Of a stretch of DNA of 35,535 nucleotides, positions 12,955-33,212 are shown piece by piece. This stretch comes from Thermoguttaceae bacterium (GTDB lineage: Bacteria > Planctomycetota > Planctomycetia > Pirellulales > Thermoguttaceae). The first letter of the stretch is position 1. Every line of letters starts with the position of its first letter. The position numbers and the translations under genes were made by a program. A model generated the notes under the pieces. It was given only the letters and a program-made list of their open reading frames with translations, was not told the origin of the DNA and searched no databases. Where the stretch lies: the NCBI GenBank assembly GCA_017447745.1, contig JAFSMW010000130.1, positions 1 to 35,535 on the forward strand, in the 5' to 3' direction.

Positions 12955-15900
12955 ATGTCATTCCGTTCATTTTTTGGTTTTGGTAAAGGTCGCAAGTCTC
13001 AGTCTCAGTCCAGCAAACGCTCGCTTCGTATGGAAGCTCTGGAAGAACGCGCTCTGTTGAGCGCCGCGCCGCTTTCCACGTCGGAATACGCCGACTTGTG
13101 CGATCAGTACGCGGAATTCAACCTTCCGGCAAACATGGCTGATCTGAACGTCATAACGCTCGACCTTGCACAAGGCGACGGTCTGTCGCAACTCAAATCC
13201 GCCATCTCTACTGCTGGAACCACAACCAAATCCGACTTGATCGTCGTCCGAACGTTCGACTCAGCAAACACTCTGACGTATTCTACCTCCAGCGACCAAC
13301 TGGCTATTGATATTAACGCCTCTCAGTACGGTTCCGTTACCATCGTTGGACTTGGTTCCCAGTCGTTCACGCTTAACGCAAATCAGAAATGCAGCGGTAT
13401 GGTAATTTCAGGCAGTGCAACTATAGCAAACCTGGGTGGAATGACATTTACCAATGGAAGGGGAGATGTTACTGGCATTTCTGATGGCGTTGAGACTACC
13501 GACGGAGGTGGAATCCGTCAGGCTTCTGGTTTGCTGACTTTAAGTAACAGTACCGTTTCCGGTAACTCGGCAACTTATGGCGGCGGCATTTATTCTTCCA
13601 AGTATTCAACGCTCACGATTAATAACTGTAAGATTTCAAATAACACGGCTTCTTCTTATACTTCCAGCAATAATACTGCTGCCGGCAGTAATGGCGGTGG
13701 AATTAACAGCAGAGGCGTTCTCACGGTAACGAACAGTGAACTGACTGGAAATACAGCTATTTATGGCGGTGGAATTTTAGTATCGGAATCTACTGCCACT
13801 CTTACATTAACGGGTAGTACGCTGTCTGGAAATACCGCGTCATTTAATGGCGGCGGTATTGCCAATTTTGGTACTTGCACCATTGCCGACTGTACAATTT
13901 CAAACAATTCATCCACTGGCAGTGAGTCAACAACTTACAATTCACCTGGCGGCGCTGGAATTTACAATCAAGGCATGATGGAAGTTTCCAACAGTTCGAT
14001 TAAGGGAAACACATCTCAATATGTTGGCGGTGGAATTTACAACAGATACACATTGACAGTATCCAATAGTATTATTCATGGTAATACTGCATCTGAAGGC
14101 GGCGGTGGTTTTTATAATGACGGCTATGACAATACAACAGTCTTAACAATAAACGACTGTGCAATAACAGGAAACTCTGTAACAAATGGTTATGGCGGTG
14201 GAATTCGCAACAATGGAGATAAGGCGACTGTTACAATCTCCAACAGCGAAGTTTCAGGAAATACAGCTAATTATAGCGGCAGCAGTTATGGCGGTGGAAT
14301 TTACAATGGTTTAAGCTCAACGTTCAATGTAATCGGCTGCACGATTTTAAATAATACTGCGGATCAGGGCGGCGGCATTTACATTTACAAAGCAGGAACT
14401 GTTTCGATTGACAGAAGTAAGATTTCAAACAATAGCGCTTCAAATTCTGGCGGTGGAATTTGGATCCGAAGTCAAGCCTCTGTCTCAATTACTAACAGCA
14501 TAATTTCCGATAACCAGACAACGTATTATGGGGGAATTATTTCAGAAAGCGGCTTGGTGACAGTTACCAATTGTACTATTACGGGGAATGCCGCTGGTGG
14601 AGTATTCGCAGGTCAAATCTATAATTCTATTATTGTTGATAACAATGGCAGTGATGTTTATGGTTCTGGCGTTACCGGTTATAACAACCTGTCCACATAT
14701 ACAAGCTGGTCTGGAAGCGGCAATATTACATACAATAACGTCTCTCCCTTTGTTAATGCTGCCAATGGCGATTATCGTCTTGCTGCAGGTTCGCAGGCGA
14801 TTGGCAAAGGTTCCAATACGTATGCCAGCAATGCCGGTCTGACATCATCCTCGAAAGACTTGGCTGGCGCTTCACGTATTGTCAATTCGACTATTGATAT
14901 TGGAGCGTATGAATTTCAAGGCGTTGAACTTCAGGGCGTCATATATAATGCAAATGACATTGCACACCTGCAGGCTTTTCTCGAACAAACCAATAGTTCA
15001 GGTCAAAAGAACGGGATAACGCTTAATAGCAGTTACAACAAGGATAATCCAAGCTCCTGGACTGGCGTAACATGGACTGAAGTTGGCGGCATAAAGTGCG
15101 TTTCCAGGATCGATTGGATGAACAAACGTCTTGTTGGTTCGTTGGACATGTCCGGTTCAACCAGTCTGACGTATCTTAGAGTATGGGACAACAACCTGAC
15201 GTCGCTGAATGTGCGGGGTTGCACAGCTCTAACGGATTTAAACTGCGTTGCCAACGAACTGACGTCGTTGGATGTATCGCAAAATACGGCGTTGACGTCG
15301 TTGAATTGCTGGGGCAACGATCTGACTTCTCTGGACGTATCGAAAAACACGGCGTTGAAATCGTTGTATTGTTATAGCAATCAGCTAACCAGTCTGGACG
15401 TGTCGAATAATACCGAGTTGACAGCGTTGTATTGCTCTTCCAACCATTTGACCGAACTGAATGTTTCAGTTAATACGGCTCTAATGAATTTGGAATGTTA
15501 CAGCAATCAGTTGACCGAACTGGATGTATCAAACAATACCGCTCTGACAACGTTGAATTGCTCGTCTAATCTTCTGACCGCATTGGACGCATCTAATAGT
15601 ACCGCGTTGACAACGTTGAATTGTTCTTCAAACCAGCTGACCGAGCTGAATATATCCAACAACATGGCGCTGAAATCGTTAAATTGCTCTTCCAACCAAC
15701 TGGACGAACTGGATGTATCAGATTTCACGGCGATGACGTTGTTAAATTGCTCTGACAATCAGCTGACGGAACTGGATGTATCACATAATACGGCTTTGAC
15801 AACGCTGGAATGCGCTGACATTCAGCTGACCGTACTGGATATTTCCCACAACACAGCTCTGACAACGTTGAATTGCTCTTCCAACCAGCTGACTGAACTG

Positions 15901-18900
15901 GATATCTCAAATAATACGGCGCTGAAAACGCTGCGCTGCTTTTCCAATCAGTTGTCAGAACTGGATGTAACAAATCATCCGTCGATTTCATTGTTATATT
16001 GCTATGACAACCATCTAGCCGAATTGGATTTACTCGACTGTCCTTCAATTCTTTATCTTTCTGTTGGCGATACGACTGAGAATGTTTATTTGAATTTGCC
16101 ACCAGATAATGGGTGGATTGATATTTCTGTCAACAGTTCTGGCGAATCATCGTCTGATTGGTCGTTCATTGACAGTGAGGGTAACACACTTAATACAGGA
16201 TCGCGTTATTACATGCGATCAACCGATACTCTTCCGATTTTTGCACAGAACGAAACCTCTGGTAAGTCGATAGCATTTTCTTCTACCCCTTCTTTGCAAT
16301 CGCCAACTCTGACAGTTCAGACGCTTGATTCCAATTCCGTTACCGTTACAGTCGGCGAAGTGGATAACGCCTCTGGTTACACGCTTGAATATGCAACCAG
16401 GGACGACTTCTCAGACGCGACAAGTCAGGACGTTTCCGCCGGTTCTACAGTCATTACCGGTCTGAACGCGAATACGACGTATTATTTCCGAACATTTGCT
16501 ATCGGTTCTGACGATTACAGCAACTCGGATTACAGCGAAACGGCTTCGGCAACGACACTGGCGGAGCCGGTAACGGTAAACGCAGTAGTCAACGCCTGCA
16601 TCGTGTTCCGAGATACTCTGACAACCGACGATATTGCTGCGGAACTGCCGACAGGCGTCAGTTCTATCCGTGCCGGAAAGACGGTCTATGCCGAAATCTG
16701 GGTCAAAGACGTTGAAAATACCGATCCAGCCATTGTTGGCGGTTATCTGAATTTGCTGTATGACAACGACGCACTGACGGTTCAGGACGTAACTTACGGT
16801 ACTGTGTTCAATTCGCTGACGGGATATCAGACGTTTGAAGACGGCAAGATTTCTACGATCGGCGGCGTTACTGCTACTGGCGTTCTCGATAAAGGAGACG
16901 ATGAATGGGTTCGTCTTGCAACGGTCAGCTTTATTGCTGAAACAGAAGGTTCAACCACGGTTACTTTGGGCGCTCCAGAGAATAATACACACAATCTGAC
17001 TCGTACAGACGCGCTTACTCTTTCTAACGATCAAATTTTCTACGGCAGCGCCGATCTGGATATTACAGCGGCGTGTCCGATGGACATCGATGGAGACGGC
17101 TATATTGCAGTATCCGATTACGCTCAATTGAGCAGAGCGTGGTTCTCATCTCCTGGCAGCGCCAACTGGAATCCAGCGTGCGACTTCGACGGCGACGGCG
17201 TTGTTGCAGTTTCGGATTACGCCATCCTGAGCCGCAACTGGCTGAAATCGGTAGACGACCCTGACTTGTATTTTCCTGTCGTGAACGCCAGCCCGGCAGC
17301 TGCAGTCGGTTCCGAATTAATTGTCAGTCCGTACAATCAGATTGCCTATTCAGATAACGCCGTTGTTGACGTTCGTTTGGCGGCAGTTTCGACCAAGTCC
17401 GCAAGCGATTCCGCATCTGACGTGCCGGCGTCGCTGGAACAGGTTGCTCCTGGGGACAGTTTCTTCGTAGAAATCTGGGTTCGCAACTTCAACGGTTATG
17501 AAAATTCTACGCTTTGCGGTCTGACGGGCGGATACGTCAACATGAGCTACAATTCAGATCTTTTAAGCGTTGACGGCGTTACCTACGGTTCTGTGTTTTC
17601 ACAACTCAACAATATGCAAAACGCCAGTACGCCGGGATACATTGACACGATTGGCGGCACGGTTTCTCCGGGCGTTATGGACAAGGGAGACGACGAATGG
17701 GTTCGTCTGGCAACCGTTGCGTTTACCGCTACCGGCGGCGAAGGCGATGCCGCAATTGAATCGTTAGCGCCGTCGATTACTCCATATAACCTTACTCTGA
17801 CGTCTGGAAAGACGCTCAAGAATGACGAGATCGATTTCGGTTCGCTGAATCTTTCAATTAGTTCGTCGCTTGGACAGCTATCGACTCCAACTTTGACTGC
17901 CAGCGCAACCGGTTACAATTCCGTTTCTGTTACCGTTGGCAGCGTTGAACACGCTTCTACATATACTGTAGAGTATTCAACCAGCGACGATTTCGCCAAC
18001 GCGTCAACAAAGACGTTTACCGCAGGAACGACAGCTATTACCGGCTTAACCGCAGAAACGACGTATTATTTCCGAGCGTTTGCAAACGGTTCTGGCGATT
18101 ACAGCAATTCGAACTACAGCGAAACGACATCAGCAACAACGCTGGCTGCTCCGGTTTTGGACGCTGAAGTTAACGCCCGCGTTGTATTCCGGGATTCGCT
18201 GACAACCGTTGATACTTCTGCTGAACTGCCGGAAGGTATCAGTTCAATTCGTGCAACGAAAACAGTCTATGCGGAAATCTGGGTTAAAGACGTTGAGGAT
18301 GCTGATCCGGCAATTGTCGGCGGTTACTTGAACGTGCTGTATGACAACGACGCTTTGACTGTTCAAGAGGTAACCTACGGCGATGTTTTCAGCCAGATGA
18401 CGGGTTATCAGACTTACGAAGACGGCGCTATTGCCACCGTTGGCGGCGTAACCGATTTTGGCGTTCTGGACAAAGGCGACGACGAATGGGTTCGCTTGGC
18501 AACGGTAACTTTTGTCGCAGATATGGAAGGATTCACCACGGTTTCTTTGGGCGCTCCCAACGATTATCACGACAACCTCACCCGTACTGACGGCGTCATT
18601 CTTTCAAATGGTCAAATTGATTACGGCGTTACGGTTCTGGAAGTAACAGCGGCGTGTCCGATGGACATTGACGGGGACGGTTATATTGGCGTTTCCGATT
18701 ACAGTCTGCTGAGCAAAGCGTGGCGTTCTTCTCCTGGAAAAGACAACTGGGATCCAGCATGCGACATTGATGGCGACGGTTACGTAGGCGTTTCCGACTA
18801 TACGTATCTTAGCAGAAACTGGCGTAAATACGCGACCGATCCTGACCTGGTATATCCGGACGCGCCTTCCAGCCCGTCAGCACAGGTTAGCGAAGTTGTC

Positions 18901-20799
18901 GTTGGCGTTTTTGAAAATCAGCCGGTTTTGGAACCGGAACCGGTTGCCGTCAGCGCTGCGGCGTCTGCGGCTGTCGAAGAAAATTCTGGCGATTTGAATA
19001 ATCCAGTCGCTTTGGAAGCCGACGAAACGGTTAACGTTCGCCTGACGGCTGTGTCGAGCAAAACGGCAAGCGACGTCGCGGCTGACGTCCCGGCTTCGAT
19101 GACGGAAATCAATCCCGGCGACAGTTTCTTTGTTGAAATCTGGGTTCGCAACTTCAACGGATACGAAGGAACAACGCTATGCGGTCTGACGGGCGGGTAT
19201 CTCAACGTGAGCTATCCTTCAGACCTGCTTACCGCAGGAAATATAACATACGGTTCTGTCTTCTCACAGTTAAACAATCTTCAAGAAGAAATCGAGTCGG
19301 GCTTAATTGATTTGATTGGCGGAGTTGCCAGAACAGGCGTTCTGGACAAAGGCGACGACGAATGGGTTCGTCTGGCGACTGTGGCGTTTACCGCGTCTGA
19401 AAAAGGCGACGCGTTAGTCGAGTCCCTTCCGCCGACGGATTCTCACGACAATCTGACGCTGACTTCCGGCAAGACGCTCAAAAACGACGAAATCAGCTTC
19501 GGCTCGCTGACGCTGTCAATCGGTTCCATCGTAATTCAACTGACGGTTCAAAACGATTTCGTCAAAACGACGCTCAACAATCCGGTTGTAATTGATTATC
19601 GTGAAAACGACACTGTATCCGACTGGTCTGAAACGACGGTTCAGTTTGGCGACGCGTCCTACGGCGAATACGCCGTCAACGCTGATGGAACGATTTCCTA
19701 TACGCCGGAAGATGGCTTCTACGGAACGGACGCTGTTTCCTACGCTGTAGTTGCTCCATCGGGCGAGCTGGCAACGGGCGCGATTGTTATCAGCGTCGGG
19801 CTTCCGATTGCAGCGTCTGTTCAGACGACGGCTGGCAGTCATTCGCCGACGTCAGCCATGGCGGCAAGCATTCCCTCTGTAACGGACTGGGATGATTGCT
19901 ATGTTGAACTGTGGGCGCAGGGCGTTACTGAACTCAATCCGGGCGAAACGACTTTGACGCTGGAATACAATCCCGCCGTATACGACGCTCCAACGTTCTC
20001 CGCCTGTGCGGACGGCGTGGCGCTGACCGTCTCTCAAAGCTCTGTTCTTCCCAACGGAAACGTTCAGGTGGAATTGACTGCTCAGGTTTCAGAGGCTCTT
20101 GCCAGCCAAACGGACAACCTGTTCCTGGGAACCGTCGTTCTGACGCCGTCAATGGACGAAGACGCCGGCGTTGTCGGATCTGCCGTTCCTGTTATTGGTC
20201 TGGACGGTTCTGAATCGTCAACTACTGTCAAGGCGATGCCGTACGACCTGATTCGCAACGGCGCCGTTGACGTCAACGACTTTGTTGCTTTCGCGACCGT
20301 CTATGGGTATGTTCCCAGCAGCGTATCGCCGGAAAACCCGCTTTACGCTCAAACTGTCAAGGCGGACTTCAACAACGACGGAAATATCAACGTTGACGAC
20401 TTTGTTCTCTTTGCGATTAACTATGGTGCAACGAAAAAGACGGCTGACAAGCCAGCGGCGCAGGGGGCGTTGCAAGTTCAGAGCGAGGAGTTGGTTATTC
20501 TGACTGCGGAATCTGATAATTCCCAATTCGAAACCTCCAGCGCTCAACTTATCAATGACAGCAGAGTCGAATCCGTCCAGACGCTGCGTCAGGCTCATTC
20601 GTCCGCTCTGCTTGACCTGTACGACAATCAGAACGGCTCGGATGTTACTGCTGAACTGTCTGCCCCGGCAATCGACGCGGCGCTTTATCAAGACGACGAT
20701 TTCGATTTCCTGTTTGACGAAACCGATTCCGATTCCGCCGACAGTTCCGACGTAGACCTGGCCCTCGTTCTGGACGAATTGGAATTAGAGTTTGCGTAA
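12955..20799 (+). CDS. Giant planctomycete surface protein: LEPR-XLL, beta-helix, LRR, Fn3, cohesin-like, dockerin
   Basis: A 2614-residue protein. Residues 25-37 (RMEALEERALLSA) are the LEPR-XLL-type motif found near the N-terminus of large planctomycete surface proteins. Residues about 160-655 are a right-handed beta-helix with repeated GGGIYN...NSTISGNTA rungs. Residues 738-1031 are 14 leucine-rich repeats of exactly 21 residues (type LTTLNCSSNQLTELDVSNNTA). Two copies of a tandem unit follow: Fn3 (about 1116-1202 and 1639-1733), cohesin-like domain (EIWVKDVE...GGYLN), paired dockerin EF-loops (DIDGDGYIAVSDY; 1374-1433 and 1901-1959) and a second cohesin-like domain (FFVEIWVRNFNGYE). A cadherin/VCBS-like domain lies at 2196-2282. 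A last cohesin-like/dockerin pair (to about 2492) has one degenerate loop. The C-terminus is acidic. An AGGAG site is eight bases upstream. Cell-cell or polymer adhesion is a likely role. Confidence 0.93.
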   Translation: MSFRSFFGFGKGRKSQSQSSKRSLRMEALEERALLSAAPLSTSEYADLCDQYAEFNLPANMADLNVITLDLAQGDGLSQLKSAISTAGTTTKSDLIVVRTFDSANTLTYSTSSDQLAIDINASQYGSVTIVGLGSQSFTLNANQKCSGMVISGSATIANLGGMTFTNGRGDVTGISDGVETTDGGGIRQASGLLTLSNSTVSGNSATYGGGIYSSKYSTLTINNCKISNNTASSYTSSNNTAAGSNGGGINSRGVLTVTNSELTGNTAIYGGGILVSESTATLTLTGSTLSGNTASFNGGGIANFGTCTIADCTISNNSSTGSESTTYNSPGGAGIYNQGMMEVSNSSIKGNTSQYVGGGIYNRYTLTVSNSIIHGNTASEGGGGFYNDGYDNTTVLTINDCAITGNSVTNGYGGGIRNNGDKATVTISNSEVSGNTANYSGSSYGGGIYNGLSSTFNVIGCTILNNTADQGGGIYIYKAGTVSIDRSKISNNSASNSGGGIWIRSQASVSITNSIISDNQTTYYGGIISESGLVTVTNCTITGNAAGGVFAGQIYNSIIVDNNGSDVYGSGVTGYNNLSTYTSWSGSGNITYNNVSPFVNAANGDYRLAAGSQAIGKGSNTYASNAGLTSSSKDLAGASRIVNSTIDIGAYEFQGVELQGVIYNANDIAHLQAFLEQTNSSGQKNGITLNSSYNKDNPSSWTGVTWTEVGGIKCVSRIDWMNKRLVGSLDMSGSTSLTYLRVWDNNLTSLNVRGCTALTDLNCVANELTSLDVSQNTALTSLNCWGNDLTSLDVSKNTALKSLYCYSNQLTSLDVSNNTELTALYCSSNHLTELNVSVNTALMNLECYSNQLTELDVSNNTALTTLNCSSNLLTALDASNSTALTTLNCSSNQLTELNISNNMALKSLNCSSNQLDELDVSDFTAMTLLNCSDNQLTELDVSHNTALTTLECADIQLTVLDISHNTALTTLNCSSNQLTELDISNNTALKTLRCFSNQLSELDVTNHPSISLLYCYDNHLAELDLLDCPSILYLSVGDTTENVYLNLPPDNGWIDISVNSSGESSSDWSFIDSEGNTLNTGSRYYMRSTDTLPIFAQNETSGKSIAFSSTPSLQSPTLTVQTLDSNSVTVTVGEVDNASGYTLEYATRDDFSDATSQDVSAGSTVITGLNANTTYYFRTFAIGSDDYSNSDYSETASATTLAEPVTVNAVVNACIVFRDTLTTDDIAAELPTGVSSIRAGKTVYAEIWVKDVENTDPAIVGGYLNLLYDNDALTVQDVTYGTVFNSLTGYQTFEDGKISTIGGVTATGVLDKGDDEWVRLATVSFIAETEGSTTVTLGAPENNTHNLTRTDALTLSNDQIFYGSADLDITAACPMDIDGDGYIAVSDYAQLSRAWFSSPGSANWNPACDFDGDGVVAVSDYAILSRNWLKSVDDPDLYFPVVNASPAAAVGSELIVSPYNQIAYSDNAVVDVRLAAVSTKSASDSASDVPASLEQVAPGDSFFVEIWVRNFNGYENSTLCGLTGGYVNMSYNSDLLSVDGVTYGSVFSQLNNMQNASTPGYIDTIGGTVSPGVMDKGDDEWVRLATVAFTATGGEGDAAIESLAPSITPYNLTLTSGKTLKNDEIDFGSLNLSISSSLGQLSTPTLTASATGYNSVSVTVGSVEHASTYTVEYSTSDDFANASTKTFTAGTTAITGLTAETTYYFRAFANGSGDYSNSNYSETTSATTLAAPVLDAEVNARVVFRDSLTTVDTSAELPEGISSIRATKTVYAEIWVKDVEDADPAIVGGYLNVLYDNDALTVQEVTYGDVFSQMTGYQTYEDGAIATVGGVTDFGVLDKGDDEWVRLATVTFVADMEGFTTVSLGAPNDYHDNLTRTDGVILSNGQIDYGVTVLEVTAACPMDIDGDGYIGVSDYSLLSKAWRSSPGKDNWDPACDIDGDGYVGVSDYTYLSRNWRKYATDPDLVYPDAPSSPSAQVSEVVVGVFENQPVLEPEPVAVSAAASAAVEENSGDLNNPVALEADETVNVRLTAVSSKTASDVAADVPASMTEINPGDSFFVEIWVRNFNGYEGTTLCGLTGGYLNVSYPSDLLTAGNITYGSVFSQLNNLQEEIESGLIDLIGGVARTGVLDKGDDEWVRLATVAFTASEKGDALVESLPPTDSHDNLTLTSGKTLKNDEISFGSLTLSIGSIVIQLTVQNDFVKTTLNNPVVIDYRENDTVSDWSETTVQFGDASYGEYAVNADGTISYTPEDGFYGTDAVSYAVVAPSGELATGAIVISVGLPIAASVQTTAGSHSPTSAMAASIPSVTDWDDCYVELWAQGVTELNPGETTLTLEYNPAVYDAPTFSACADGVALTVSQSSVLPNGNVQVELTAQVSEALASQTDNLFLGTVVLTPSMDEDAGVVGSAVPVIGLDGSESSTTVKAMPYDLIRNGAVDVNDFVAFATVYGYVPSSVSPENPLYAQTVKADFNNDGNINVDDFVLFAINYGATKKTADKPAAQGALQVQSEELVILTAESDNSQFETSSAQLINDSRVESVQTLRQAHSSALLDLYDNQNGSDVTAELSAPAIDAALYQDDDFDFLFDETDSDSADSSDVDLALVLDELELEFA
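15166..16047 (+). repeat. Fourteen 63-bp tandem repeats coding leucine-rich repeats
   Basis: The coding repeat has a strict 63-base period with no insertion or deletion. Units 6-8 and 12 are the most alike, which points to recent duplication or gene conversion within the array. Confidence 0.9.
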
Positions 20800-22087: not shown

Positions 22088-22112
22088 GAATAGTATTAAA
22101 AATAGCTGAATA

Positions 22113-22152
22113 GGCAAGTCAGATAATCAAGTTTCTGACTTGCCCGTTTTTT
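22113..22152 (+). terminator. Terminator of the DUF362 gene
   Basis: GGCAAGTCAGA (22113-22123) pairs perfectly with TCTGACTTGCC (22134-22144), followed by CGTTTTTTATT. It lies between convergent genes. Confidence 0.9.
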
Positions 22153-22167
22153 ATTGGGCGTCAAGCG

Positions 22168-22776
22168 TTATGTAAGCCAATCTTCCAAACGTTCGACAGT
22201 CCGTTTTAAGCTGGAAGAACATTCAACCGCATTGGATATATTCCAAACGTTTTGAATAAAGTATCCCAACAACGCGTTGTAATCGTAACCTTGAACGGCA
22301 TACTGGTCTTTTGGGGGAATTCCTTCGCGAACGGCTTTCTTTTTCGATTTTCGCGCCAGATTGCAAATCAGTTGTTTGGGATCTGGAATTGAATCTGTTT
22401 CAACAGGGATTTTTGAAATTGGGATGCCTAGATACTCAGCAATATTTTCCCTGTCAGCCAAAATCCATGATTCGACTTCACGCACCGCAACGCGAAAGAG
22501 CAGATTCGGATTTAATGGGATATGTTTTGTCCAGTCGTCAATTAATTGCGGAGCGCAAAGAGCAGCATCCAAATCCGTTAAAATAAAGTAAGGGAATTCT
22601 GGTTTAGCCGTCTTATTGTATCCAGGAAGATTCTTTTTAATCTTGCCGAAACCATAGCATGGAATGTGCTTATGAACTGATATATCTGGTCTGTATGTCG
22701 ATAGAATTCGATCTATGACGGTTCCGCTCAGCTCGTCCTCATAAACGGTTGTTATTGGTTTAGGTTGAACCTTCAT
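22168..22776 (-). CDS. TOPRIM-like protein (DUF4276/OLD-nuclease-type), partner of ATPase
   Basis: A 202-residue protein whose conserved acids follow a TOPRIM pattern: E13 in VYEDELSGTVI, D68 and D70 in YFILTDLDAA, and E100 and E102 in VREVESWILAD. This spacing is seen in DUF4276 and related OLD-type nuclease domains that work with ABC-class ATPases. The expected activity is metal-dependent nucleic-acid cleavage, or sensing by a TOPRIM fold. The start ATG overlaps the stop of the ATPase gene by four bases (ATGA), so translation is coupled and the two proteins are likely to form one complex. PARIS (AriA/AriB) and OLD/Gabija-like systems have a comparable ATPase + TOPRIM plan, but I cannot assign this pair to a named type. 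The family call is by motif only. Confidence 0.65.
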   Translation of the reverse strand: MKVQPKPITTVYEDELSGTVIDRILSTYRPDISVHKHIPCYGFGKIKKNLPGYNKTAKPEFPYFILTDLDAALCAPQLIDDWTKHIPLNPNLLFRVAVREVESWILADRENIAEYLGIPISKIPVETDSIPDPKQLICNLARKSKKKAVREGIPPKDQYAVQGYDYNALLGYFIQNVWNISNAVECSSSLKRTVERLEDWLT

Positions 22777-23957
22777 TTGCTCAATTCCGGAAACGTTAGT
22801 TGAGTCAATTTTTCGATATTCTTCGGAGCAGTTTGCGGAAAGACAATTTCGGAAAGTGGAATTCCATTGTTAAATTCTTCAATGCTTTGTTTGTCTTCAC
22901 ATGCAGGCATGCAGATTGTACCATGATCCGAAGGCAAGAATAACAAAACGTCAGAAAGCGAAATGCTCTTATCTGTCAACAAAGCGTCGCTGTGCGACGT
23001 TATAATAAACTGACGTTTCGTTTTCGACGAACGCTGAGCTTGAGTAAACAAATTCGGCAAACGCGCGACAATTTCCGAATTCAAGGAAAGCTCTGGCTCT
23101 TCAAGCAATAAAACGCCGCGATTTTCCAGAATCGACCATAACAACGCAATTAAACGGAGCGTACCGTCCGAAAAGTCAGCTTCCTGTTGTTTTCCAGCTT
23201 TAGGACGCCAATGCTGATACAACGCCTGAAGATGGGGACGTCCACCTTCATCGGTTGTCAATTCAAGTTCTTTCAGCTGCGGTACAGCAACATTTAGATA
23301 TTCGTTAATTCGTTTGAGTCTGCTGTTTCTCGTCTTTTCCGGGGTATTATTGATTTTCTCCAAAAAGCCTTGACCAAACGGATCGTGAGGCAAATCATGA
23401 CCGCTATATATTGAAGGATGCCTGAGAAGTTGAGGAACTAAATGATAATAACTGATATTATTAAACGCCGAATGCAAAGCGCGAAATTCCTGATTACGGC
23501 TCGTCTGTTCCAACCACGTTTCAGACATTTTCAACGGGTCGTTTATATCATCCGAATTTGGACGCTCAAGAATCAACTTATCGTCTTTCCAAATTTTTTC
23601 AAACGTTAACAGCGTATTGTGAGCGCCTTTTGTTTCCTGGACAAATCCAATGCTGTATCTCCATTCAGGAGGAAGAGATTCAGTTTTGGAAATAGACGAC
23701 GACAGTTCAACTGTAATTTCGACTTCAGGATCCTTACGTGCATACAGACAACGAATCTTTTTCATCCCGCCGCGGGCAGAAATTGCAGACTGAAAACCGC
23801 CGGTATTAGATGCTATGTCCCGCAAAAATCGAATTGCGTCCAAAAAATTGGATTTTCCAACGGCGTTGGGACCGATTATAAACGTTTTGTCGCTTAACGG
23901 AACTGAAACAGAGGAAAAATTACGCCAGTTTTTCAGTTCAACTTTTGTAATGTACAT
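22773..23957 (-). CDS. AAA/ABC-class ATPase (RecF/OLD-like, AAA_21)
   Basis: A 394-residue ATPase. The N-terminal KVELKNWRNFSSVSV is the start typical of RecF/OLD/SMC-related ATPases. The Walker A motif is GPNAVGKS (29-36), the ABC signature DFSDGTLRL (261-269), Walker B LLLEEPE (283-289) and the switch His H322 in IITSHSD. The inserted middle (about 90-250) is helical and unlike the short SMC coiled coil. Such stand-alone ATPases commonly act in phage defence or DNA repair with a nuclease partner. Here the partner is the TOPRIM-like gene, overlapping by four bases. No clear ribosome site precedes the ATG at 23957. The H1-tail gene ends 62 bases upstream on the same strand, so read-through from it is possible. 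Confidence 0.88.
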   Translation of the reverse strand: MYITKVELKNWRNFSSVSVPLSDKTFIIGPNAVGKSNFLDAIRFLRDIASNTGGFQSAISARGGMKKIRCLYARKDPEVEITVELSSSISKTESLPPEWRYSIGFVQETKGAHNTLLTFEKIWKDDKLILERPNSDDINDPLKMSETWLEQTSRNQEFRALHSAFNNISYYHLVPQLLRHPSIYSGHDLPHDPFGQGFLEKINNTPEKTRNSRLKRINEYLNVAVPQLKELELTTDEGGRPHLQALYQHWRPKAGKQQEADFSDGTLRLIALLWSILENRGVLLLEEPELSLNSEIVARLPNLFTQAQRSSKTKRQFIITSHSDALLTDKSISLSDVLLFLPSDHGTICMPACEDKQSIEEFNNGIPLSEIVFPQTAPKNIEKLTQLTFPELSK

Positions 23958-24019
23958 GATCTATCAAAAATGGTTAATCGTAAAAATTTTCGTTTACGCT
24001 ATGTCAGTCCTTCAACGCG

Positions 24020-24787
24020 TTACCAAATCTTCTTTATTGTCGGCTTTTTTGCCGTTGTCTTTTTAGCGGTCGTTGACCGGGTTGTCGTCTTTTTCGCCGT
24101 TGTCTTTTTAGCTGTCGTTGTTCTGGCGGGGGTCTTTTTGGCTGTCGTCTTTTTAGCTACGGTCTTTTTGGCGGTTGTTGACCGCGACGTCGTCGTCTTT
24201 TTCGCCGCGGTTGTTCTGGATCTGGACGTTGTCTTTTTGGCGGTTGTTTTTCTTCTGGTTGTTCTTCTTTTCTTTGAAGACCAGAGTTTTTTCACTTCTT
24301 TGTAGACTGTGTCCAAAACCCAAAGAACTTTTTTCAGCTGTGGATTGCTGGTTTGCTTCATCAAGGAGCCGATATCAAACTTGCCCATTCCAAAGCCGCC
24401 GGCAGACGTCTTCTTTGCAGGCTGCTTTTCTTCTTGAGCGTCGGGGAACCCCAACAATTTTTTGCCCCATGTCAGAACGCTGTCGGTAATAGAGGCTCCT
24501 TGTTGAGGATTATCTTCCTTGCCCTGACCGCCCAGCGTGTTAAACCAGTCAACGACAGAGGAATAATCAATGCCAAGGTTCCCAAAGGAACCGCCGGAGG
24601 TATTCTGAATGGCGTCCCCAAAGAACCTGTTGACTTTGTCCTGAGAGAACTCGTCCGGATTCGAATCGTCTACAAACAGTTCCTCGTTATCCCGAACCCA
24701 CTGCGCGACGTCGTCTTCTGAACAGTCGGGGTTGTCTACAAGGTTTTGTAACGAAACGTTTCTAAAATCGTTTTGGAAAGTAGTCAT
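24020..24787 (-). CDS. Protein with histone H1-like Lys/Thr/Ala tail
   Basis: A 255-residue protein with two parts. Residues 1-170 are of ordinary composition and include an acidic N-terminus (DNPDCSEDDVAQWVRDNEELF), a Gly/Asn-rich centre and a helical segment before residue 170; no family is recognised, though the layout recalls DUF937-like proteins. Residues 171-255 are a basic low-complexity tail of repeated TTAKKT, TARSTTAKK and KKTTAKKTPA words, like the C-terminal tails of eukaryotic histone H1 and of bacterial H1-like proteins. The tail should bind DNA or another polyanion without sequence specificity. The coding DNA is correspondingly repetitive (24020-24275). It is cytoplasmic, with no ribosome site seen. 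It lies between the pRiA4b-type gene (84 bases) and the ATPase gene (62 bases), all on one strand. Confidence 0.75.
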   Translation of the reverse strand: MTTFQNDFRNVSLQNLVDNPDCSEDDVAQWVRDNEELFVDDSNPDEFSQDKVNRFFGDAIQNTSGGSFGNLGIDYSSVVDWFNTLGGQGKEDNPQQGASITDSVLTWGKKLLGFPDAQEEKQPAKKTSAGGFGMGKFDIGSLMKQTSNPQLKKVLWVLDTVYKEVKKLWSSKKRRTTRRKTTAKKTTSRSRTTAAKKTTTSRSTTAKKTVAKKTTAKKTPARTTTAKKTTAKKTTTRSTTAKKTTAKKPTIKKIW

Positions 24788-24871: not shown

Positions 24872-25918
24872 TTATTTCTTTCGTTTCTTTTTAGACGAAT
24901 TCTTTTCTTGCTTTTTCGTGGTCTTTGTTGGAAGATCGACTTGACCGAAAATCTGCTGAAGATGCCAAATGAGTATAAATTCGTCATAAGCCTCTTTGAG
25001 TTCACTTGCCTTGGCTCGGATTTCAGGATCCGAATTCTGTTCTAATATTTGGATAATAGCTTTGAAGTCATCAGAAGTAAAATACTGGTTGTCTAAATCA
25101 ATGCCTTTGCAAGATATGTTGTTAGACTTGCATAGATTGACTACAGAAGAAATCAGAATATTCATCTCCGGCTCGTCGACCATCTCAAATTCGCCTTCTT
25201 CGCACTCGGAAGTAAACACATCGTCTAAATAACCAGAACCCAGTTGTTCAACCATTTCTGAATATTTGCCATTGAACTCGTCAAGCTCGTTCTTGATCGT
25301 TTCCTTTAGATTGTTCAGGCGTCGGTTTGCCTCGTCAAGATTGAATTCACCAGGCCAGCTCCCGTTAATGTCGAGTTCATTGTCTTTGATATACTCGTCA
25401 ACATCCTGTTTAGTTTCAGGATCAACTTCAGGATCATGGCTCAGGCAATAGATTTTATTAAATTCGTACGCCCCCGGGAAAAAACTTGAAGGACAAGCCC
25501 CTTCGCCTTCAAGACATTCAAAATTAAAAAGATCAAGATCAACGCTGACTTTTTTTAACACGGTAACTTGAACAATCCATGGATCATTACTCTCTAAAGA
25601 CATCCGGAACTTCTTGCTGTAGCCAAGCAAATCTCCCAAACTGTCAATTATTATCTTTGAATCGGGGCCAGGCTGAAATTCCAAGTGATGAAGCTTTCTG
25701 ATAATGCCTTCTTCTGGATTACCGCAATAAATATCATTCTTAATACCGAAACGGAATTCATAATCTTCATCCCAACCAAACGCTTCATTAAAAATACGGT
25801 AAACGTCTCTCAAAGAATAAAAATCCGGGACGGTAACTACACGCCAAATTGGAATACACGTCTCCAAAAGTTCGACGCGAAGTGTAAACAATTTCATACG
25901 TTCTTTTCTGGGACTCAT
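24872..25918 (-). CDS. Plasmid pRiA4b ORF-3 family-like protein
   Basis: A 348-residue protein. The ATG at 25918 is preferred over an in-frame GTG at 25924, because the AAGGAG site lies five bases before the ATG and would overlap the GTG. Residues about 8-130 follow the pRiA4b ORF-3 pattern: FTLRVELLETCIPIWRVV, then DFYSLRDVYRIFNEAFGWDEDYEFRF, and later a block (KIIIDSLGDLLGYSKKFRMSLE) where the family usually has its DYGD-W motif. The match is divergent. The rest is acidic and helical, and the last 15 residues are Lys-rich (KKKRKK). The biochemical role of the family is unknown. It may head a minus-strand run that includes the H1-tail, ATPase and TOPRIM genes. Confidence 0.65.
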   Translation of the reverse strand: MSPRKERMKLFTLRVELLETCIPIWRVVTVPDFYSLRDVYRIFNEAFGWDEDYEFRFGIKNDIYCGNPEEGIIRKLHHLEFQPGPDSKIIIDSLGDLLGYSKKFRMSLESNDPWIVQVTVLKKVSVDLDLFNFECLEGEGACPSSFFPGAYEFNKIYCLSHDPEVDPETKQDVDEYIKDNELDINGSWPGEFNLDEANRRLNNLKETIKNELDEFNGKYSEMVEQLGSGYLDDVFTSECEEGEFEMVDEPEMNILISSVVNLCKSNNISCKGIDLDNQYFTSDDFKAIIQILEQNSDPEIRAKASELKEAYDEFILIWHLQQIFGQVDLPTKTTKKQEKNSSKKKRKK

Positions 25919-25972
25919 AATCACTCCTTGATGTATTGGGCTAATTTGACATATATTAGCATAGAATCCTAT

Positions 25973-28943: not shown

Positions 28944-29843
28944 ATGATGAACGTTCAAAAACTATATATTTGGGTAATTATACTGTTGACAGTCCTGGTT
29001 TTAAAGACTGGAAACTCTGCCTGTGCGCAGTACGCATCAGATCCTGGTCCTTATCGGGTTTATGTCTTGTGTATTTGGGGAGACGCTGACAAAAACCGGG
29101 ATAATGTGAGGACGGTAAAAACCACGGAAGAGTATCTGATGAAGTTCTTTGCCGATATTCAAAAGAAATGGAAAAAGGATGATGAAAAATCAGGTAAAAT
29201 CCGCTCCTTTTCGATTGAATCTCTGTACGGTTCCAAGACGTCTCGAGATGAAATCCTGAAAAAATGCCGCGAAGTTTCGGAAAAAGCAGGACCTGACGAC
29301 GTTGTTTTTATATATGTGCTTTGTCACGGCGGTCATGTCAAAGGAAGTTTAGAACATACGCATTTTTTTACTCCAACCGCTTTGAGTGCGGATTCCTGGA
29401 CTAAAGACGATATTATTTATCGAAGGGAAATTCAGGAAATCCTGAATGAAAATGAGCATCGCCTCAATATTTTGATTACAGACACCTGCGCGCATGTAAC
29501 GTCCAAGAAGAGCGTTGGGTCGTCCAAACGCGGGATTTTGACAACGGTTCCGGAGTTTCCCGCCTACGACTCCATTTTTAACGACTTTGTAGGAACAATT
29601 AATATCAATTCCACATCTTGGAAAGGCGGAATGGGTAAAAAAGGCGAAATGGCTATCGGAAGCAGCGACTATGGAACTGCTTTTACCCGAGCGCTAATTT
29701 CAACCTTGCAGCAGGAAACGCAGCCGTCCCGATACACAAAACCGAAATTTCTGGATGCGCTTCAAATGGAAACAAATCAGTCATTTAACGAGCTGAAAAG
29801 ATCTTTTAAAAAAACAATGATGGATTATTCTACTCGATTTTAG
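28944..29843 (+). CDS. Secreted caspase-like cysteine protease (clan CD)
   Basis: A 299-residue protein. Residues 1-29 are a signal peptide (LYIWVIILLTVLVLKTGNSACAQ). The caspase/metacaspase fold is indicated by the strand-then-His motif VVFIYVLCHGGHV (catalytic H128) and the second strand ending in ILITDTCAHV (catalytic C182 after D180). The order, spacing of about 54 residues and DxC pattern fit clan CD. The rest of the family's usual N-terminal strand motif is changed to YRVYVLCIWGDADKN. No accessory domain is present. The expected activity is cleavage after Arg/Lys or Asp outside the cytoplasm, with the target unknown. The gene begins a plus-strand trio with a DUF2330-like gene (143 bases on) and a second caspase gene. 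Confidence 0.8.
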   Translation: MMNVQKLYIWVIILLTVLVLKTGNSACAQYASDPGPYRVYVLCIWGDADKNRDNVRTVKTTEEYLMKFFADIQKKWKKDDEKSGKIRSFSIESLYGSKTSRDEILKKCREVSEKAGPDDVVFIYVLCHGGHVKGSLEHTHFFTPTALSADSWTKDDIIYRREIQEILNENEHRLNILITDTCAHVTSKKSVGSSKRGILTTVPEFPAYDSIFNDFVGTININSTSWKGGMGKKGEMAIGSSDYGTAFTRALISTLQQETQPSRYTKPKFLDALQMETNQSFNELKRSFKKTMMDYSTRF

Positions 29844-31261: not shown

Positions 31262-31364
31262 TTTTGATCAGTTTTTATATAGAGTATTCGCAACCCGGAT
31301 TTGAATTATGATCGGCAGCCGGATTTTCGTCTGGCTGTCGGCGAGTTGTTCAGGAGCAAATTTA

Positions 31365-33212
31365 ATGAAACGTTTTTGCCTTCAATATCTGCTATTTATC
31401 CTGTTTACAGGTTTCGCGTTTTTGGTTTTCGCGGAGGGAAACGCTCAGCGTCAATGGAAATCAGTCTCTGGACGAGTTGTCATGACCGGGACGTTTGAAA
31501 AATTCAAACCGACAGATCCCAGTTGGGTTTATTTTCGTTCATCTAACGGAAAGCTTTACCAATACCCGTTTGATAAACTTTCCAAAGAAGATCGGGAATT
31601 CATTCAGTCGCTTGATAATGAAGACCCCGACCTGGTGGAAGTGGAAGAAGCTCCGGAGGAAACAGTCAAGAATACTGCCAAATCCAGGGGAAGCCGCAAT
31701 TCCAATTCCAACTCTGCCAGAGAAATGGGAAAACGATACGCTCTTTTAGTGGGGGTAAATCATTATTTGGACTTGAATCAGCTGGAATGCGCCGTGGCGG
31801 ACATTCAGTTGATTCAGGAAAAACTGTTTCAACTCGGGTTTGAGTCTGAGAATATTAGAATGTACATCACGGGCAATTCCATTGGAAAGTACCCAGACAA
31901 AAAAACCGTTGAAGCCGGATTCAGAGAAATCTTAAAAGAGGCAGACGAGAATTCCCAGATATTCATTGCGTTTGCCGGTCATGGTTTTGAAATTGACAAC
32001 GTCTCCTATTTTGCCGTTGAGGACACTCGAACGGACTCAAATGACTCTTTAAAGAAAACCGCCATCAATGTTAACGCCATGTTGGAAGAACTGCATAATT
32101 GCAAGGCGTCTTCCAAGTGGTTTATTGTTGACGCTTGCCGTGAATACATGATTCCAAAGCGCAGTTCCCGTCTGCCCAAAATCAGCCGTGGAATTAATTC
32201 CGCCGGAAACGGGAATTTGCCGGAAGGCGTGTTCTTCCTGCAAAGCTGCAAAACCGGCGAGTCGAGCTACGAAGACAATGGGAATGGTTTGTTTACCCGC
32301 TGTTTTGCGGATGCACTGGATGGAAAAGCCGACGCGAACAACAACGGCGAATTGACTGTTTTGGAGGTCTTTGAATACGTTTACACGAACGTCAAAAAAG
32401 ACGCTCTGAATAATCTTAGCAAAAGGCAGACGCCTACTTTTTCCATTCCTGAAAATACGCCCAACTTTACCATCGCTTATACAGCAAATCTCCTGCAGCA
32501 TGGTCTGCCTAATAAAGAATGGGACAGAGTTCAAAAACTGTATGACAAAAGTTTGAAACTGTTTGCGGATAACAAAAAGGAAGAAGGATTGGAATTGTTG
32601 GATCAAGCAATGGATGTTATGAAAAACGCCGATGACGATGCGCCTTTGAAAGAAAGAATCAAAATCGTGTCGAAGCAGGTGCGAAATTCGATAGCAGAAA
32701 GAAAAAAGCTTGAAGAGAATTTTGAAAAAGAAAAAGCTTCATTGAGAGCTCAGATAGAACTTGAAAAAGAGAACGCGATTTTAAAGGCTCAACTCGAAGC
32801 GGAGAAGCTGAGAATAGCGGAGGAATCGAAGAGAGCGGCGGAGGAAGCAAGAAGAGCGGCTGAAGAGGCGAGAAGAGCAGAGGAAGCCAGGAAAGCGGCG
32901 GAAAAGGCGAATGTAGTCAGAGAACAGCCAAAACCACAGTATCATTTTCCAACTCAGTTCGTTTACCTCGGAAAGGTTCCAAGCATTCGAGGAGATAACA
33001 GTCAGGCGAGAGCGTTTGCTGCTCAGTATGGCTACAGACTTCCTTCGCCTAGTGAACTGTCGCAGATATCCCGTAACGACATTTCCGGAATTCCAAGCGA
33101 TGGCTGGATTGAGACGTCAGACCCCAATGTTGTATGCGATATCTTTTTCCAGCAATTGAATCCTGTCCAAAAGAGAGGAACGGGAATGAATCTGGTTGTT
33201 GGTTGCCGATGA
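31365..33212 (+). CDS. Secreted SHD1-caspase (peptidase C14) protein with coiled coil
   Basis: A 615-residue protein counted from the ATG at 31365, chosen because it has AGGAG eight bases upstream and starts the signal peptide MKRFCLQYLLFILFTGFAFLVFAEG. An upstream in-frame ATG at 31308 would add 19 residues. Residues about 35-80 resemble the SHD1 domain common in planctomycetes (WVYFRSSNGKLYQYPFDKLSKEDREFI). The caspase domain follows: RYALLVGVNHYLDL (about 124-137), FIAFAGHGFEID with catalytic H206, and WFIVDACRE with catalytic C258. Its end has DGKADANNNGELTVLEVFEYV, the loop usual in bacterial C14 proteins. Then comes a charged Ala/Glu/Arg coiled coil (about 420-545) and a globular C-terminal region of about 75 residues containing YGYRLPSPSEL. 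Confidence 0.85.
   Translation: MKRFCLQYLLFILFTGFAFLVFAEGNAQRQWKSVSGRVVMTGTFEKFKPTDPSWVYFRSSNGKLYQYPFDKLSKEDREFIQSLDNEDPDLVEVEEAPEETVKNTAKSRGSRNSNSNSAREMGKRYALLVGVNHYLDLNQLECAVADIQLIQEKLFQLGFESENIRMYITGNSIGKYPDKKTVEAGFREILKEADENSQIFIAFAGHGFEIDNVSYFAVEDTRTDSNDSLKKTAINVNAMLEELHNCKASSKWFIVDACREYMIPKRSSRLPKISRGINSAGNGNLPEGVFFLQSCKTGESSYEDNGNGLFTRCFADALDGKADANNNGELTVLEVFEYVYTNVKKDALNNLSKRQTPTFSIPENTPNFTIAYTANLLQHGLPNKEWDRVQKLYDKSLKLFADNKKEEGLELLDQAMDVMKNADDDAPLKERIKIVSKQVRNSIAERKKLEENFEKEKASLRAQIELEKENAILKAQLEAEKLRIAEESKRAAEEARRAAEEARRAEEARKAAEKANVVREQPKPQYHFPTQFVYLGKVPSIRGDNSQARAFAAQYGYRLPSPSELSQISRNDISGIPSDGWIETSDPNVVCDIFFQQLNPVQKRGTGMNLVVGCR

Follow-up and report, generated by a model that had tools for sequence, protein, structure and literature searches.

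Background

The described systems closest to the locus reported here combine an ATPase with a second enzymatic activity, and they differ in how the two are distributed over genes. In OLD proteins the ATPase and the TOPRIM domain are carried by one chain, as they are in Gabija and class 2 OLD, where a UvrD-like helicase gene adjoins, while PARIS (AriA-AriB, class 4 OLD) encodes ATPase and TOPRIM on separate genes. In Septu the partner of the ATPase PtuA, which is also known from retrons, is not a TOPRIM protein: this partner, PtuB, is an HNH nuclease. The two-metal site of OLD has been described for the protein of B. pseudomallei, where metal A is assigned to E400, D455 and D457 and metal B to E404, T506 and E508, with K562 in addition (PMC7049728). 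The TOPRIM nuclease of PARIS is reported to be retained by a ring of the ATPase and, once a phage protein has been sensed, to cut tRNA (PMC11455837; PMC12409363).

A further set of systems goes by the name HEC, for Hma-embedded candidate (PMC12988326), and several of these, with HEC-06 being named, were active in assays of a preprint according to the same source. For HEC-01, one member of this set, we found no experiment or mechanism study in the literature searched (preprints and most subscription papers lay outside the search), and a literature search for the associated domain DUF4276 returned no paper. In the following we describe a gene pair of a Thermoguttaceae bacterium (assembly GCA_017447745.1, contig JAFSMW010000130.1, positions 1 to 35,535 of the forward strand; this whole stretch of 35,535 nucleotides is referred to as the window), which by its profile matches is assigned to HEC-01, a catalogued but little-studied candidate system, and which is thus real but not of a new kind.

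Results and discussion

Gene pair and family assignment

Both genes lie on the minus strand of the window. The upstream gene (22773..23957; P0002) encodes a RecF/OLD-like ABC ATPase of 394 residues (HEC-01A) and the downstream gene (22168..22776; P0001) a protein of 202 residues with a predicted TOPRIM fold and similarity to DUF4276, a putative nuclease (HEC-01B, in the following the effector). The stop codon of the ATPase and the start codon of the effector overlap by four bases, ATGA (22773..22776). Reading the sequence directly confirms the coordinates and the overlap given in the first-pass annotation, which had been made from the letters and their open reading frames.

That annotation had considered the pair a possibly new or divergent variant and had proposed a search with defence-system profiles. 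This search places both proteins almost end to end in an existing family: the ATPase matches PADLOC HEC-01A (PDLC04180) with 475 bits over residues 1-385 of 394, and the effector matches HEC-01B (PDLC04194) with 198 bits over residues 6-200 of 202. The idea of an unclassified new system is ruled out by these near full-length matches. The HEC-01B model likewise matches all 81 aligned partners. Pfam DUF4276 is matched by the effector of the window with 24 bits, which is under the cut-off of 30.2, and by 79 of the 81 aligned partners at E up to 1; NCBIfam holds no model for this protein. The window copy was found to differ from other HEC-01 pairs in one respect only: its branch in the ATPase tree is long (1.55).

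Relatives were collected with a peptide pattern from one genome per species, which yielded 285 sequences, the best 80 of which were used. These best 80 of 285 are spread over many bacterial phyla and archaea, and at 79 of the 80 loci the ATPase lies directly upstream on the same strand; at the remaining locus the effector begins 42 bases from the contig end. A four-base overlap as in the window is present in 37 of the 79 linked relatives and a one-base overlap in another 10, and the spacing between the two genes falls between -40 and +15 in 75 of the 79. Since gene order and coupling are maintained across bacteria and archaea, the pairing is far beyond chance. The distances in the ATPase and effector trees are correlated as well (Spearman 0.78, 54 pairs, none of 999 permutations as high), a value to which host relatedness contributes too. 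Two copies (loci L070 and L086) are decayed or cut: one genome (one of 20) has three stops in the ATPase, and in the other the match is limited to the C-terminal part of the ATPase.

The ATPase

The sequence motifs of HEC-01A, all on the minus strand, were assessed in an alignment of 56 rows (A6), which takes in 47 of the 79 linked ATPases. They comprise a Walker A motif GPNAVGKS (residues 29-36; 23850..23873), the ABC signature SDGT (residues 263-266; 23160..23171), which is present in all 56 rows, a Walker B motif LLLEEPE (residues 283-289; 23091..23111), with E286, E287 and P288 in all 56 rows, and a switch histidine, H322 (22992..22994), in 55 of the 56 rows. Invariant throughout are G34, K35, S263, D264, G265, E286 and E287. 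The earlier reading of these four motifs as intact agrees with their conservation in 55 to 56 of the 56 rows.

The protein matches Pfam AAA_21 with 129 bits, and its AlphaFold2 model has a pLDDT of 91.4. The best fold matches of this model are PtuA and the heads of SMC and Rad50, with PtuA at the top in Foldseek, while the first matches of the ATPase profile are OLD and GajA chains. HEC-01A is an ATPase of the sensing and gating type, as are those of OLD, PtuA and AriA.

Fold of the effector

HEC-01B was modelled with AlphaFold2 from an alignment of 81 rows (A5), which omits eight of the 80 loci (odd or redundant ORFs) and several further copies. The model (pLDDT 96.6, pTM 0.91) has strands at residues 6-12, 32-39, 63-68 and 92-97 with helices between them, and it satisfies the beta-alpha-beta-alpha-beta core of TOPRIM, E13 following strand 1 and D68 and D70 following strand 3. 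In Foldseek, the sole match under 0.001 is the C-terminal region of an OLD protein (6nk8_B, E 5.9e-4). In VIA-align, OLD (6nk8_A; Z 9.1, rmsd 4.0, 160 residues aligned) is tied with AriB (8ux9_A; Z 8.8, rmsd 4.0, 164 residues aligned), followed by the Pyrococcus protein PH0156 (2p62; Z 8.4), and retron Eco2 (Z 5.8) and GajA (Z 6.9) occupy lower ranks. JetD is absent from the VIA-align list, which excludes nothing. Because lumazine synthases come next after PH0156 in the same list, at Z 7.0, the fold match taken alone is modest. The structure match, the order of the residues described below and the ATPase partner all agree, however, and on the basis of the model we are confident in assigning HEC-01B a TOPRIM fold. 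The outcome that the first-pass annotation had named as speaking against its reading, a predicted structure with no TOPRIM fold, did not occur. Such a fold is no proof of nuclease activity.

A link from HEC-01B to a solved structure was also sought by sequence only. With 11 rows nothing credible was obtained, and with 81 rows the profile matched just 30 residues of Crov588 (E 1.5e-6), which was judged unrelated.

Putative active site

The candidate site residues of HEC-01B are likewise encoded on the minus strand. E13 (22738..22740), placed at the end of strand 1 in the model, and the DLD motif with D68 and D70 (22567..22575), at the end of strand 3, are putative ligands of metal A; E13 and D68 are present in all 81 rows and D70 in 78, with Asn in the other three. 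An ExE motif with E100 and E102 (22471..22479) is the putative site of metal B. Here E100 is present in 72 of 81 rows and E102 in all 81, but 72 of the rows were found with the peptide pattern, which itself demands E102 and W104; E13, D68 and E102 are invariant also in 13 relatives found without any pattern. K134 (22375..22377), present in 80 of 81 rows, may correspond to the catalytic Lys/Arg in the OLD site, a role suggested by residue order only. The acids E, DxD and ExE thus occur in TOPRIM order, as the first-pass annotation had described.

The succession E13, D68, D70, E102, K134 is that of the two-metal site of OLD, as an order in sequence and not as a spatial superposition, and the spacing of E13, D68 and D70 (55 and 2) equals that of E400, D455 and D457 in the B. 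pseudomallei protein (PMC7049728). At position +4 from the first Glu, where OLD has an acid, 67 of the 81 effectors carry Ser and seven carry Asp. In 74 of the 81, Asp occupies residue 14 but not residue 17; the other seven have Gly at residue 14 and Asp at residue 17, as in OLD, and among the 81 effectors Asp is never found at both positions and never missing from both. As the seven Gly14/Asp17 effectors may be one lineage, this swap may represent a single event.

Comparison with described systems

The pair resembles PARIS in having ATPase and TOPRIM on separate genes and in that AriB shares the best fold, but the effector has no AriB profile match and is about 100 residues shorter than AriB; by these two measures the pair is not a member of PARIS. 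With OLD it has in common the type of ATPase, the TOPRIM fold and the site order E, DxD, xxE, K, while it differs from OLD in being split over two genes and in carrying mostly Ser where OLD has the acid at +4. In contrast to Gabija and class 2 OLD, the window pair consists of separate genes, with a DUF362 ferredoxin-type gene on one side and a histone-like gene on the other. Finally, PtuA ATPases of Septu and retrons are the best Foldseek matches of HEC-01A, but the partner of PtuA is no TOPRIM protein, unlike HEC-01B. By membership the pair falls outside PARIS, Gabija and single-chain OLD, in line with the earlier statement that none of these is clearly matched.

Insertion and spread

The pair is held by an approximate insert (22088..24011) that is absent from three genomes of the same genus. 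At E below 1e-20 the ATPase is found in five of 40 relative genomes, that of the window being counted, and in none of the three same-genus genomes, although the flanking DUF362-type gene is present in all three with 95-98% protein identity, as is the histone-like gene. Between these flanks, two of the sister loci (L037 and L036) have about 80-100 bp, and the third holds a different ORF, which is membrane-protein-like (L038:4638-5297); for this reason the place of the insert may represent a variable site of small size. The G+C content is 0.41-0.42 for the pair, 0.54 and 0.47 for the two flanking genes and 0.48 for longer stretches on either side.

Matches to the effector were found in 14 of 294 genomes of the phylum, its own included, and 10 of these are strong. 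A tree that unites the window copy with three copies from its family in one clade is rejected (p-AU 7e-64), and a clade with just one of these three is borderline (p 0.049); the nearest kin of the window copy is unsure owing to its long branch. Given the absence from all three same-genus genomes that retain the flanks, the lower G+C and the same-family copies not forming one clade, the pair is an acquired insert that moves horizontally. A vertically inherited housekeeping pair, which would have spoken against a defence role according to the first-pass annotation, is ruled out by the patchy presence, the absence from the genus and the rejected clade.

No relative of the pair was found in phage records, plasmid records or viral contigs, and no direct or inverted repeats bracketing the insert were found. 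Promoters and terminators are predicted about as often as in shuffled sequence. Nearby, a gene with a PRiA4_ORF3 domain (24872-25924, minus strand; G+C 0.39) has no counterpart at this place in the three same-genus genomes and is a second, separate insert. The repeat tail of the histone H1-like protein (24020-24787, minus strand) is rich in Lys and Thr and differs between the same-genus genomes.

Genomic neighbourhood

Among 140 proteins neighbouring the relatives, 163 PADLOC models were matched below 1e-15, compared with eight among 140 control proteins, these being counts of matched models and not of proteins, with many models overlapping. Of the 220 neighbouring ORFs at 57 usable loci, 140 were used, following the order of the list; the controls were 140 of 191 ORFs from 20 stretches in 20 of the genomes. 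Of these stretches, 19 were located on contig 5, and the remaining one shares a contig with the pair, at a great distance from it. Matches of the neighbours include type III methyltransferases (four proteins), type I specificity subunits (two) and Cas6 (two), those of the controls mad3 in three proteins. When ten larger neighbours, picked by size, were scanned singly with PADLOC, four were matched, namely a type III-D CRISPR protein, a type III methyltransferase and two SNF2-type helicases. With Pfam, the same 140 neighbours also contain many housekeeping genes, for example CTP synthase and ketol-acid reductoisomerase (four each), and the defence islands around the relatives are thus partial. 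In the window itself no defence gene stands beside the pair: nine of the ten other window proteins scanned gave no PADLOC match, and the tenth matched a caspase model. The location in defence islands, which the first-pass annotation had put forward for checking, accordingly holds in part for the relatives, whose neighbours are rich in defence genes, but not for the window pair, which stands alone.

Elsewhere in the window, caspase-type proteins are encoded on the plus strand at 28944-29843 (Pfam Peptidase_C14) and 31308-33212 (the PADLOC caspase model). A repeat-rich protein of 2614 residues (12955-20799, plus strand) carries an N-terminal LEERALLS motif, which is typical of planctomycete proteins.

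Proposed mechanism and alternatives

The pairing and coupling of the genes, the motifs of the ATPase, the modelled TOPRIM fold with its conserved site residues, the sporadic and horizontal distribution and the defence-rich neighbourhoods elsewhere are the observations from which we infer that in HEC-01, a horizontally moving module, the ATPase probably detects infection and controls a two-metal TOPRIM nuclease that ends it. By analogy, HEC-01 is expected to work on the plan of PARIS. HEC-01A, most likely as a dimer or higher oligomer, would bind HEC-01B and keep it inactive; a trigger borne by the phage, or a changed state of nucleotide or DNA, would alter the ATPase and thereby free or activate HEC-01B. 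The predicted nuclease would then end the infection by cutting nucleic acid, with tRNA as its target in the manner of PARIS or DNA in that of OLD and Gabija. The first-pass designation as a candidate defence system of coupled ATPase and TOPRIM proteins is thus borne out by the HEC-01 match and the TOPRIM model, with defence as the presumed outcome.

Other readings of the pair differ mainly in what the nuclease would attack and for whose benefit. It is rather unlikely that the pair is a split OLD nuclease directed at DNA, whose ATPase would load its TOPRIM partner onto DNA that is invading or damaged, to be nicked or degraded without cell suicide. The top fold from class 2 OLD (its C-terminal region), the fit of the E/DxD/ExE/K order to the OLD site (PMC7049728) and the first rank of OLD and GajA chains for the ATPase profile all point this way, but the tied Z values of OLD and AriB mean that the fold is unable to tell a DNA from an RNA target. 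We regard it as improbable that the pair is PARIS itself or a diverged form of it, which would sense anti-restriction proteins and cut tRNA-Lys: the layout is the same, AriB is second by Z, and the ATPase matches the PADLOC AriA model (PDLC02980) with 118 bits, yet this match equals the generic AAA_21 match in length and range and is far exceeded by that to HEC-01A, no AriB model is among the 12 PADLOC matches of the effector at E up to 10, and AriB has 305-306 residues in solved chains as against 202.

Two small, coupled and mobile genes that at times decay could also make up a selfish module of the toxin-antitoxin or addiction type that plays no part against phages, and PARIS has itself been called a toxin-antitoxin system (PMC11455837); the defence-rich neighbourhoods and the search of plasmid records, in which none was found, make this reading unlikely. 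For a service in DNA repair or the cell cycle there is a precedent in the archaeal Cran1, an OLD-family ATPase-nuclease that PMC12796447 characterises as apparently essential and not antiviral. Such a role is highly improbable for a pair that is missing from all three same-genus genomes, is strongly matched in so few genomes of its phylum and has copies within one family that do not form one clade.

Returning to HEC-01 as an infection-sensing module, we tentatively raise the possibility, itself rather doubtful, that alongside PARIS it represents another class of split OLD-type systems, having a trigger and a target of its own and a short TOPRIM nuclease in which one metal-binding acid has moved, as the exchange of Asp between residues 14 and 17 would suggest. 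The TOPRIM assignment and the short list of site residues offer a direct test of HEC-01, and if the pair is PARIS-like, HEC-01 would be a second split ATPase-TOPRIM immune system.
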